A stretch of DNA of 57,560 nt, from IMG/VR virus record IMGVR_UViG_3300027763_000005, positions 1-57,560 of that record; one strand, given 5' to 3'. Below the pieces are notes generated by a model. That model worked only from the letters and a program-made list of their open reading frames with translations, searched no databases and was not told the origin of the DNA. This DNA comes from a virus. Positions within the stretch are counted from its first letter, which is position 1, and each line of letters starts with the position of its first letter. Of this stretch, positions 45,989 through 57,529 are shown in pieces. The translations under genes and the position numbers were made by a program.

Positions 45989-46064
45989 GCTATCGTAGCT
46001 CAGAGGTCAGAGCGTCCGCTTTGTAAGCGGAGGGTCGTGGGTTCAAATCCTACCGGTAGCTCCA
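45989..46064 (+). tRNA. tRNA-Thr (anticodon TGT)
   Basis: Cloverleaf on the top strand: acceptor GCTATCG/CGGTAGC, D-arm GCTCAGAGGTCAGAGC, anticodon loop TTTGTAA (anticodon TGT), T-loop TTCAAAT, encoded CCA at 46062-46064. It reads ACA. It lies inside the late operon, 25 bases after the large terminase stop, and must be cut from a long transcript or have its own promoter. Confidence 0.9.
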
Positions 46065-53295: not shown

Positions 53296-53688
53296 ATGCC
53301 GCCAATGATTATGGAACATCCAGTAGACCCGGCTGAAGTCTTGAAGAAGGAGATTGGGGATACCTCCAATGTCGAGGTCTTCAATAACCAGATTTTGGTT
53401 GCGGTTTATATTCGCCCGCAGAAGACCAAGAGTGGAATCTTTCTGACGGAAAAAACAACTGATGAGGACCGGTACCAGTCCAAGGTCGGCCTTGTTATCA
53501 AAAAGGGTCCAGAAGCGTTTAACGACGAATCTGGCATCTGGTTCAGCGACACTGAGATCAAAGAAGGCGAGTGGGTGGTCTTTCGACCGTCTGACGGCTG
53601 GAGCATTACGGTCAATAACGTCCTGTGCCGCATGATTGATGATGTGAACGTGAGGGCTAGGATCGACCAGCCTGATCGCGTTTGGTAA
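53296..53688 (+). CDS. GroES-like co-chaperonin
   Basis: A 130-residue Cpn10-type fold: ILVAVYIRPQKTKSGIFLTEKTTDEDRYQSKVGLVIKKGPEAF, then IKEGEWVVFRPSDGWSITVNNVLCRMIDD. The mobile loop region (TKSGIFLTEK) that contacts GroEL is present. As with T4 gp31, it would replace host GroES so that the GroEL cage folds the phage capsid protein. It lies just before scaffold and capsid genes, in keeping with this. Confidence 0.85.
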   Translation: MPPMIMEHPVDPAEVLKKEIGDTSNVEVFNNQILVAVYIRPQKTKSGIFLTEKTTDEDRYQSKVGLVIKKGPEAFNDESGIWFSDTEIKEGEWVVFRPSDGWSITVNNVLCRMIDDVNVRARIDQPDRVW

Positions 53689-54646: not shown

Positions 54647-55288
54647 ATGTCTGAAGCAATGAAAGCCGCCCCCAAGCGTCGTGGCCGTCCGCCCCGCCCA
54701 ATTGTCAAAAAGGCTGAACCAAAGATGGAAGCAGCCGGTGATTTTGACAATGTTGTCATGACAGAAGTTGTCATTGAGGACTCGGTCGCCTTTGAACGTC
54801 CGCCCATGCGTCCGTCTATCCGGGATGAAGACCCGCGTCTGACAGCCGCCAAGCGCGCTGCTGAGATTCGTGGTCACCTTCTGGGTAGCATGGACGACGG
54901 CACGGATGAGTTTGCCGCCCCACGCCCGCCGGATGGCTGGACGTATGAGTGGAAGAGGAAGACCGTCCTTGGGCAGGAAGACCCTGCTTACCAAGTACAT
55001 TTGGCACGGATGGGTTGGGAACCAGTTCCCACTCGCCGTCACCCAGAAATGATGCCGGGACAGGGTAGCCACCCAGCAATTGAGCGTAAGGGTATGACCC
55101 TGATGATGCGCCCGACTGTGATCTCTGAAGAAGCCCGTGACATTGAAAAGCGCCGTGCGCGCGATCAGGTCCGTGCCAAAGAAGCACAATTGAATGCCAC
55201 CCCGGATGGTACGTTGACCCGTGACGATCCGCGTGTTCGCCCGAACATCAAGAAGGGGTTTTCCCCAATTGAAGTCCCAACAGACTGA
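54647..55288 (+). CDS. Conserved phage structural protein with AT-hook-like head
   Basis: A 213-residue product. KRRGRPPRPIVKK near the start is an AT-hook-like DNA-binding tag. The centre, RPPDGWTYEWKRKTVLGQEDPAYQVHLARMGWEPVPTRRHPEMMP, and RKGMTLMMRPTVISEEARD are typical of a family encoded just upstream of podovirus capsid genes. It could link capsid and DNA. The function is not established. Confidence 0.7.
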   Translation: MSEAMKAAPKRRGRPPRPIVKKAEPKMEAAGDFDNVVMTEVVIEDSVAFERPPMRPSIRDEDPRLTAAKRAAEIRGHLLGSMDDGTDEFAAPRPPDGWTYEWKRKTVLGQEDPAYQVHLARMGWEPVPTRRHPEMMPGQGSHPAIERKGMTLMMRPTVISEEARDIEKRRARDQVRAKEAQLNATPDGTLTRDDPRVRPNIKKGFSPIEVPTD

Positions 55289-55313: not shown

Positions 55314-55343
55314 GGGTCGCCATGTGCGGCCCTTTTCTTTTAT
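55314..55343 (+). terminator. Intrinsic terminator before the structured region
   Basis: GGGTCGC (55314-55320) pairs with GCGGCCC (55326-55332) around a 5-base loop, followed by TTTTCTTTTAT. It ends transcripts from the scaffold operon 25 bases after the stop at 55288. Confidence 0.8.
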
Positions 55344-55368
55344 GGGGAAGTGTGTATTATAAAAAAAT

Positions 55369-55850
55369 GAACCCGGCAGAGTTTGTCGCTCTGCCGGGCT
55401 CACTGAACCTTCCGCCGCAAACGGAGAGGAGCAGCTTAGGGACGATTATATATCTCATCCCCCAGCAGTCAATCTCACCAGAACGTCGGAGAACAAATAA
55501 CCTCACCCGGCAATGCCGATTGAGTGAGTTTTTGTTGGTTCGGCGGTGAGCCTTCGGGGATGGTCCGTTATCCGTTGCCCGCGACTGCTGGTGGTCTACA
55601 TCACCAGATAAGTTTCCTGCGGGTTTTTGCCCTCCGACCGTCCTGACGCCGGGTAGGCTAAGGAGCAACACCGATCTACATACCCCCTAGAGTAGTGCCC
55701 TAAAGGTACTAGGGAGCGTTCTGGCCCAACGACAGGTGAGAATATCACCAAGGCATCGGTGCTATACGGGAAACAAGAGCCCTCCCCCGACCGTGACCCC
55801 CGTAAGGGTCCTTCCCAAGCAAGGGAGGGAGGGTAGACGGAGGGCGGAGC
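55369..55850 (+). ncRNA. Candidate large structured non-coding RNA
   Basis: Stable local and long-range pairing is dense here. The 5' hairpin CCCGGCAGAG/CTCTGCCGGG (55372-55381 with 55389-55398) is perfect. A long-range 9-bp helix joins CCAGCAGTC (55462-55470) to GACTGCTGG (55583-55591) and encloses an extended hairpin with CTCACC/GGTGAG (55474-55479 with 55545-55550), CTCAC/GTGAG and CGGC/GCCG. A second closed domain, CACCGAT/ATCGGTG (55669-55675 with 55755-55761), holds CCCTAG/CTAGGG and GGTGA/TCACC hairpins. GCCCTCC/GGAGGGC (55779-55785 with 55839-55845) closes a third. Size and multi-domain form recall ornate phage RNAs such as GOLLD or ROOL, but identity is not shown. Confidence 0.6.
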
Positions 55851-55879
55851 TTTACATTTATCTAGAAATGGTTTACTTT
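55851..55879 (+). promoter_or_regulatory. Candidate promoter of the capsid operon
   Basis: TTTACA (55851-55856), a 17-base spacer and TACTTT (55874-55879) form a plausible sigma70-like promoter at the 3' edge of the structured region, about 120 bases before the first capsid gene. Confidence 0.5.
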
Positions 55880-55971
55880 CCTAAAATAGAGTCCTTCTGG
55901 GGCTTTTAATCGTCCCCCGGCGTGGACGATCAATCTTTTCCGGTTCTAAGTCGCCCCGGTGTGCGATGATG

Positions 55972-55990
55972 AACTTCCTGAAAAGGAGTT
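55972..55990 (+). promoter_or_regulatory. Hairpin over the ribosome site of the capsid operon
   Basis: AACTTCCT (55972-55979) and AGGAGTT (55984-55990) pair with one bulged T around a GAAA tetraloop. The Shine-Dalgarno AAGGAG (55983-55988) for the ATG at 55997 lies in the stem. Translation would depend on melting this short hairpin, or on an RNA or protein partner. Confidence 0.55.
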
Positions 55991-55996
55991 TCCATC

Positions 55997-56617: not shown

Positions 56618-57529
56618 ATGGCTGTTAACCTTTCTGCCATTAAGGACCTTCTCCTCCCCGGCCTCCGTGGGGTTGAAGGCAAGTACGAGCAAATTCCGGC
56701 ACAGTATGACAAGATTTTCACGAAGCATGACTCGAAAATGGCGCTTGAGCGCACAGCCGAGATGCGTTTCTTGGGTCTTGCCCAACTGAAGACTGAAGGC
56801 GGTCAGACCGCTTTCGACAACAGTGCTGGCGAACGCTTCATCTATAACCAAGAGCACACTGAAATTGCTCTGGGTTACGCAATCACCCGCAAGGCGATTG
56901 ATGACAACCTCTACAAGACTCAGTTCGCTCCGTCGAACCTCGGCCTGATCGAATCTTTCGGCCAGACCAAGGAAATCTACGGTGCCAATATCCTCAACAC
57001 TGCGACGACGTACAACTCGTCCATCGGTGGTGACGGTAAGGCTCTTTGCGCGACTGACCATCCTATCGATGGTGGCACGGTCTCAAATCGTCCGGCGACA
57101 GATGTTGATCTCAATGAGTCAACACTACTCAACGCTATGATTTCGATTCGTACCAACTTCAAGGATCAGGCTGGCCTCAAGGTGTTTGCGCGCGGTCGCA
57201 AGCTCGTTGTCCCGCCGCAGCTTGAACCGGTTGCCATTCGTCTGACAAAGACTGAACTGCGTCCGGGCACTGCCGATAACGATGTCAACGCGATCATGTC
57301 CACTGCTGGCGGTCTGCCAGAAGGATATCTGGTCAATGACTTCCTGACATCGGCTCGTGCTTGGTTCCTCCTGACAAACATTGATGGTTTGTCGTACATG
57401 GAGCGGGTTAAGTTTGAAAGCGATATGCAAGTCGACTTCGTAACCGATAACCTTTTAGTTAAAGGATACGAGCGCTACTCGTTCGGCTATTATAACTTCC
57501 GTTCTATCTTCGGGTCGTTCCCAACCTGA
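56618..57529 (+). CDS. Major capsid protein, Mu gpT-like HK97 fold
   Basis: The 303-residue product matches Mu gpT-type major head proteins: YDKIFTKHDSKMALERTAEMRFLGLAQLKTEGGQTAFDNS at the N-terminus, a spine-helix region (TEIALGYAITRKAIDDNLY), FGQTKEIYGANILNTA, LLNAMISIRTNFKDQAGLKVFARGRKLVVPP, and the end YERYSFGYYNFRSIFGSFPT. About 400 copies would be expected per T=7 shell, which agrees with its strong AGAGGAG ribosome site. It is repeated in part at 1-96. Confidence 0.9.
   Translation: MAVNLSAIKDLLLPGLRGVEGKYEQIPAQYDKIFTKHDSKMALERTAEMRFLGLAQLKTEGGQTAFDNSAGERFIYNQEHTEIALGYAITRKAIDDNLYKTQFAPSNLGLIESFGQTKEIYGANILNTATTYNSSIGGDGKALCATDHPIDGGTVSNRPATDVDLNESTLLNAMISIRTNFKDQAGLKVFARGRKLVVPPQLEPVAIRLTKTELRPGTADNDVNAIMSTAGGLPEGYLVNDFLTSARAWFLLTNIDGLSYMERVKFESDMQVDFVTDNLLVKGYERYSFGYYNFRSIFGSFPT

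Follow-up and report, generated by a model that had tools for sequence, protein, structure and literature searches.

A non-coding phage insert with RNA structure conserved on opposite strands, located ahead of the capsid genes

An RNA insert between two late operons

A non-coding insertion of ~500 bases (about 55345-55857) lies just ahead of the capsid genes of a freshwater phage, and, judged by the substitutions that separate it from its relatives, RNA structure is conserved within it on both strands: on the minus strand in the left quarter (55358-55475) and on the plus strand in the right three quarters (55476-55858). The window, i.e., the whole stretch analysed, is a virus record of 57,560 bases. 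The same insert occupies the same place in two other phage records, L099 and L105, making three copies in total, and it is the comparison of these sequences that supports the insertion itself, the use of two strands, the structures, a minus-strand promoter and terminator, and an unusual degree of conservation. Predicted features are collected in Table 1.

By blastn, the element is 83% identical to those of L099 and L105 over 509-510 bases, and by global alignment the nucleotide identity is 85%; the L099 and L105 elements are 92% identical to each other, and the three copies thus amount to essentially one comparison between two lineages. The C-terminal part of the upstream scaffold gene and the downstream 201-aa gene are each only 69% identical to those of the relatives, the capsid leader is 70-75% identical, and the capsid gene is 84% identical. 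An element that, on these alignments, changes less than its coding neighbours would be either recently exchanged or strongly constrained. The longest ORF differs from one copy to the next (104 aa minus, 62 aa minus, and 72 aa plus), and a protein-coding reading was dropped because no ORF is shared; the first-pass annotation was thus right to see no gene in this stretch.

A blastn search of phages and plasmids for distant homologues found none, and DNA-pattern scans of viral contigs (five words) and genome contigs (one word) recovered only L099 and L105 as true homologues. Other exact-word matches, including those in L082-L085, were judged to be chance as they had no wider similarity; those in L084 and L085 fall within ORFs. 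A covariance model of the minus-strand RNA, run on 41 sources and ten further phage or MAG records, gave no additional copy.

Table 1. Predicted features in and around the insert (window coordinates)
Feature	Position	Strand	Description or basis
Rho-independent terminator of upstream (scaffold) operon	55314..55341	+	GGGTCGC-CATGT-GCGGCCC plus T-tract, read from sequence
Weak candidate plus-strand promoter (putative)	55333..55360	+	TTTTCT-16-TATTAT, 8/12
Predicted sRNA (~80 nt) of two hairpins, ending with the terminator	55358..55438	-	Promoter, terminator, folding, and structure conserved on minus
sRNA terminator hairpin (the earlier 5' hairpin)	55366..55404	-	Pair-keeping substitutions
Inverted repeat (8 + 8 bases) around the -10 box	55438..55462	-	Arms 55438-55445/55455-55462
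Near-consensus sigma-70 promoter of the sRNA	55445..55472	-	TTGACT-16-TATAAT, 11/12 positions
Predicted large plus-strand RNA	55367..55857	+	Putative 5' end; structure support 55485-55850
Domain I	55485..55544	+	GTCGGA/TTCGGC, AACAAA/TTTGTT, CTCAC/GTGAG, CGGC/GCCG
Most conserved stretch (GTGNGCCTTCGGGGATGGTCCGNTATCCGTTGCCCGCGACTGC)	55545..55588	+	Alignment
Domain II	55557..55644	+	GGGATGGT/ACCGTCCT, GCCCGCG/TGCGGGT, hairpin CTGGTG/CACCAG
Domain III	55669..55761	+	CACCGA/TCGGTG around hairpins TAGTGCC/GGTACTA and GGTGA/TCACC
Domain IV, 3' composite hairpin	55777..55857	+	Structure to 55850, then T-tract (weak in the window)
Capsid-operon leader, separate element	55904..55996	+	Two hairpins, each loop CCCGGYGY, before Shine-Dalgarno

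The scaffold-capsid gap

Downstream of the insert, the plus-strand genes encode a 201-aa phage protein and then the major capsid protein (56618-57529; PHROG major head protein). For the latter, identity is 90% to the version in an uncultured Caudoviricetes genome from Manatee Spring and ~40% to those of Pelagibacter and Roseobacter phages. The upstream gene (54647-55288) is without a PHROG match and is called scaffold from its position only. The immediate neighbours of the element are a plus-strand terminator upstream and the promoter region and leader of the capsid operon downstream. The terminator (stem 55314-55332), which was also found by scan as the same hairpin in L099 and L105, bears out the earlier suggestion that the element has its own upstream terminator. 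A phage-encoded GroES-like co-chaperonin (PHROG 3188) is found at 53296-53688, upstream of the capsid module.

Relatives with both flanking genes were gathered from viral contigs and MAG contigs, yielding 239 measurable scaffold-capsid gaps, which are loci and not independent genomes. In 181 of these, the gap is at most 250 bases, and the short gaps inspected contain terminator, promoter region, and leader only; the remaining 58 have inserts or longer spacing. Inserts elsewhere comprise ~160-aa minus-strand ORFs resembling homing genes of the HNH type and a methyltransferase-like ORF (both assigned by eye), small ORFs, and tRNA-Met genes; gaps with other inserts include L040, L050, L057, L135, L142, L172, L194, and L230. 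Given these inserts, the scaffold-capsid gap is an insertion hot spot, and the element is one cargo among several. The inserts of L190, L182, and L180 contain ~300 non-coding bases with nested hairpins 3' of tRNA-Met; double changes exceed those in shuffles (P 0.006-0.008), the fraction of kept pairs is mixed between strands, and they may represent a further RNA cargo of this gap.

Structure is conserved on different strands in the two parts

Pairs were first defined using only the window sequence, and each substitution in L099 and L105 was then scored for whether it keeps them; the null shuffles substitutions among positions with the same base, is not tree-aware, and applies to three sequences with one deep split. 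On the minus strand of the left part (55358-55475), 12 of 14 variable pairs are kept and two are broken, with seven double changes, and 0/1000 shuffles were as good; on the plus strand, only four of 12 are kept and eight are broken. The right part (55476-55858) behaves in the opposite manner: 14 of 26 variable pairs are kept and 12 broken on the plus strand (again, 0/1000 shuffles as good) vs. ten of 31 kept and 21 broken on the minus (P 0.32). About half of the varying pairs in the window's minimum-energy plus fold are thus broken, making the exact fold uncertain. Consensus energies against column shuffles favour the plus strand in the right part (z -4.8, vs. -2.8 on the minus); the left part is strong on both strands (minus z -10.4, plus z -9.4) because of its long hairpin. 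A comparison of homologues for covariation, as the first-pass annotation had proposed, therefore does reveal pair-keeping changes, although from two relatives only and split between strands.

The asymmetry arises because G-U pairs exist on one strand only, which speaks against DNA palindromes alone as its explanation. A DNA-level element (inverted repeats bound by a protein, or a site for recombination or packaging), or an insert that is decaying and lacks RNA function, would suit both the inverted repeat around the minus-strand -10 box and a site that accepts other inserts, e.g., HNH-like ORFs. However, palindromes do not explain pairs kept through G-U on one strand only, with that strand differing between the two parts, and conservation of the element is above that of the flanking genes; we consider such a reading very improbable. 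Single-sequence folding of this stretch (plus z -3.0, minus z -2.3; -1.7 and -1.0, respectively, when the 5' hairpin is left out) is only modestly above chance and would not by itself establish the element, whereas the comparison with relatives does.

A predicted minus-strand small RNA

The predicted sRNA folds with z-scores of -5.9, -6.1, and -4.6 in the three copies. All 16 pairs of its terminator hairpin are kept on the minus strand, seven of them varying and four changed at both bases. The "perfect 10-bp 5' hairpin" described earlier therefore exists, but belongs to the opposite strand as a rho-independent terminator (55404-55366, minus). Similarly, a possible promoter had been noted; the strong one (55472-55445) is on the minus strand and has the same spacing and 11/12 matches in the window, L099, and L105, whereas the plus-strand candidate is weak (8/12). 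In a minus-strand model of 38 pairs, 98% of cells pair and seven pairs have changed on both sides, a number of double changes reached by 1/500 shuffles (slid controls, 0-2). A small RNA gene is expected to have a promoter and an intrinsic terminator to itself, and to retain them from copy to copy; both are present in all three here. Complementarity of the sRNA to the starts of flanking genes was not consistently above shuffled controls across the three phages.

The inverted repeat around the -10 box has eight pairs, of which four vary; all are kept on the minus strand, two by both-side changes. Either the repeat serves as an operator, in which case its specificity may have changed, or it forms an RNA hairpin within a longer minus transcript beginning further to the right.

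A predicted large plus-strand RNA

The plus-strand part would be about 375 nt by structure, or about 490 nt were transcription to begin at the weak upstream promoter. That sequence is the only plus-strand promoter candidate kept in position across the three copies, but it overlaps the T-tract of the minus-strand terminator, and this overlap could explain its conservation. The candidate is placed just upstream of the sRNA 3' end; were transcription to start near 55367, the sRNA would be antisense to the 5' end of the large RNA.

Four plus-strand domains are consistent across the three sequences, although the pair counts that follow rest on hand-picked helices, and the unbiased figure is that of the strand test with structure taken from the window only. 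In Domain I, the variable pairs of GTCGGA/TTCGGC and AACAAA/TTTGTT are kept on the plus strand via G-U and broken on the minus; helix CGGC/GCCG was taken from the alignment. Domain II has five variable pairs, all kept on the plus strand and two by both-side changes. Its hairpin CTGGTG/CACCAG reads CCAGTG/CGCTGG in L099 and L105, through two double changes and one G-U pair, and is the best evidence for plus-strand structure; MAFFT misplaced this hairpin, and the alignment was corrected by hand ahead of the test. Domain III has three variable pairs, all kept on the plus strand and one by both-side changes. Identity is 0.92 over 55545-55594, vs. 0.52-0.88 in the left quarter. The T-tract after Domain IV is clear in L099 (TTTGACCTTTTTT) and L105 and weaker in the window.

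The first-pass annotation had envisaged a single ~480-nt plus-strand RNA with three long-range-closed domains. This does not hold as stated, since in the first ~110 bases it is the minus strand that carries the structure, and of the closing helices listed, one is not conserved: the 9-bp helix 55462-55470/55583-55591 is present in the window, but three of its pairs are broken in both relatives. The 7-bp helix 55669-55675/55755-55761 is also present in the window, and the six pairs kept in the relatives are all invariant, hence uninformative on pairing. Helix 55779-55785/55839-55845 forms in the window but loses its first pair in L099 and L105, where a longer, slightly shifted helix forms instead. 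Loosely speaking, the plus-strand part could still count as a large phage RNA.

Comparison with known RNAs

No family matched the element region at the Rfam gathering threshold, in line with the earlier description of a structured RNA outside known families; matches below threshold were short plasmid ctRNA-like or sRNA matches, and noise. The suggested Rfam covariance search for GOLLD, ROOL, group I intron, tmRNA, and RNase P was run and matched no family: GOLLD and ROOL are found neither at gathering nor, under permissive filters, at E values of up to 5, and the last three gave no match to Rfam or ARAGORN models. The phage-encoded GOLLD and ROOL, the function of which is unknown, assemble into homo-oligomeric RNA cages and are often near tRNAs (PMC12286853). 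The element resembles them as a large structured RNA encoded by a phage, but it is shorter, partly on the opposite strand, present in few copies, and has no tRNA neighbour; the closest tRNA in the window (45989-46064) is about 9.3 kb away, and none was found in L099 or L105. Size class, phage location, and a multi-domain plus fold would be expected if the element belonged, even remotely, to GOLLD, ROOL, or a known RNA such as group I intron, tmRNA, or RNase P. Given the searches above, the missing tRNA neighbour, and a part structured on the opposite strand, we regard this as highly unlikely, and the proposed likeness to GOLLD and ROOL does not hold in the form given.

The nearest resemblance is on the minus strand, where ctRNA_pGA1 (RF00236) aligns to 55356-55432 at 30.4 bits (E 5e-4), below its cut-off of 45 bits; the resemblance stems from a shared two-hairpin, terminator-ended layout. 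Like the ctRNAs of pGA1- and repABC-type replicons (RF00236, RF00489), the predicted sRNA is a short minus-strand RNA with an upstream hairpin and a terminator hairpin; unlike them, it has no rep gene opposite, whereas plasmid ctRNAs are antisense to a rep gene leader. In ColE1, the two RNAs start upstream of the origin and run opposite ways, RNA II from 555 bp and RNA I from 445 bp (PMC11012335). The element would be similar to that pair in having a short RNA antisense to the 5' part of a long structured RNA, with the sRNA clearly placed and the plus-strand 5' end taken from one weak promoter candidate. In pairs of the ColE1 type, the long RNA primes replication at an origin further downstream; the element differs in lying in a phage late region with a capsid leader downstream, in having neither a replication origin nor a Rom gene among its identified features, and in having no Rfam match. 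There is precedent in kind for large non-coding transcripts from phage gaps: an orf-less gap of ICP1 yields a ~800-nt transcript, the most abundant of that phage, and the IIR transcript of the PLE satellite has antisense homology to leaders (PMC7567579). These abundant RNAs are likewise non-coding and come from orf-less gaps, but of other phages and at other positions.

A possible antisense-controlled RNA cargo

The explanation we prefer, to which we give about an even chance, is that the insert is an RNA-only cargo in which the sRNA is antisense to the 5' end of the large plus-strand RNA and controls it. Transcription, the plus-strand start, the antisense pairing, and the effector role of the large RNA are all what we infer. 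This cargo (an "RNA moron") would sit in the variable site between the terminator of the scaffold operon and the promoter of the capsid operon. On the minus strand, the strong promoter would yield the ~80-nt sRNA (about 55438 to 55358), ending at the strong terminator; on the plus strand, the large multi-domain RNA would be made, perhaps from near 55367. As a countertranscript, the sRNA would pair with the large RNA while the latter is being made, altering its folding or stopping elongation and thereby setting its level, and the effector carried by the module would be the large RNA. The control proposed is akin to that of ctRNA on repC leaders and RNA I on RNA II. Against this count the finding of only three copies, the weakness of the plus promoter, and the lack of a rep gene or known target; in addition, the inverted repeat at the -10 box suggests a longer minus transcript, and the promoter model does not account for it unless it is an operator.

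Alternatively, the two RNAs may be independent products, a trans-acting minus-strand sRNA and a structured plus-strand RNA, neither regulating the other, any overlap being only compact packing. The sRNA shows every sign of a stand-alone gene, and support for plus-strand structure begins only at about 55476, beyond the sRNA. However, the only conserved plus promoter candidate would make both RNAs overlap, and no other conserved one is found between the two structured parts; we view independence as possible but the less probable outcome. A cis-acting role is also conceivable, with the plus structure as a conditional terminator or attenuator tuning read-through from the scaffold into the capsid operon and the sRNA as its switch. 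The position between two operons and the T-tract after Domain IV in L099 and L105 would suit this, and there is a precedent in the ctRNA on the repC leader, the pairing of which induces an intrinsic terminator (PMC3155836). Yet an operon terminator is already present upstream, the capsid operon retains its own promoter region and leader, and in most relatives the same operons do without such an element, so attenuation seems improbable.

Returning to the antisense-controlled cargo, we suggest, tentatively and at somewhat less than even confidence, that the element represents a new ~490-nt class of large phage RNA under its own countertranscribed antisense RNA, a protein-free module moving between freshwater phages. 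If true, this would be a pair like RNA I and RNA II without a plasmid, in the scaffold-capsid gap. Annotation is geared to ORFs and so easily overlooks protein-free cargo modules in phages. An antisense pair with a large structured partner, conserved between late operons, would provide a compact model for how large phage RNAs, with functions as open as those of GOLLD and ROOL, are carried and dosed.

The capsid-operon leader

The leader of the capsid operon contains a second, more widespread RNA motif. Its second hairpin stands on a lower stem, and the Shine-Dalgarno sequence can pair with an upstream CTCC. In an alignment (A5) of 70 non-redundant leaders, the window and 69 other loci, 14 of 15 pairs change on both sides; both-side changes number 228 cells vs. 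74 in shuffles, and 0/500 shuffles reach that number. The motif was not found in Rfam, and a model of it gave no match in five distant relatives, a single match in the window (87 bits), and one match in each of 16 further loci. As a new RNA motif it has stronger support than the insert, and it probably controls translation, a role directly testable for capsid production. The self-complementary CCGG in each loop would let the two loops kiss.
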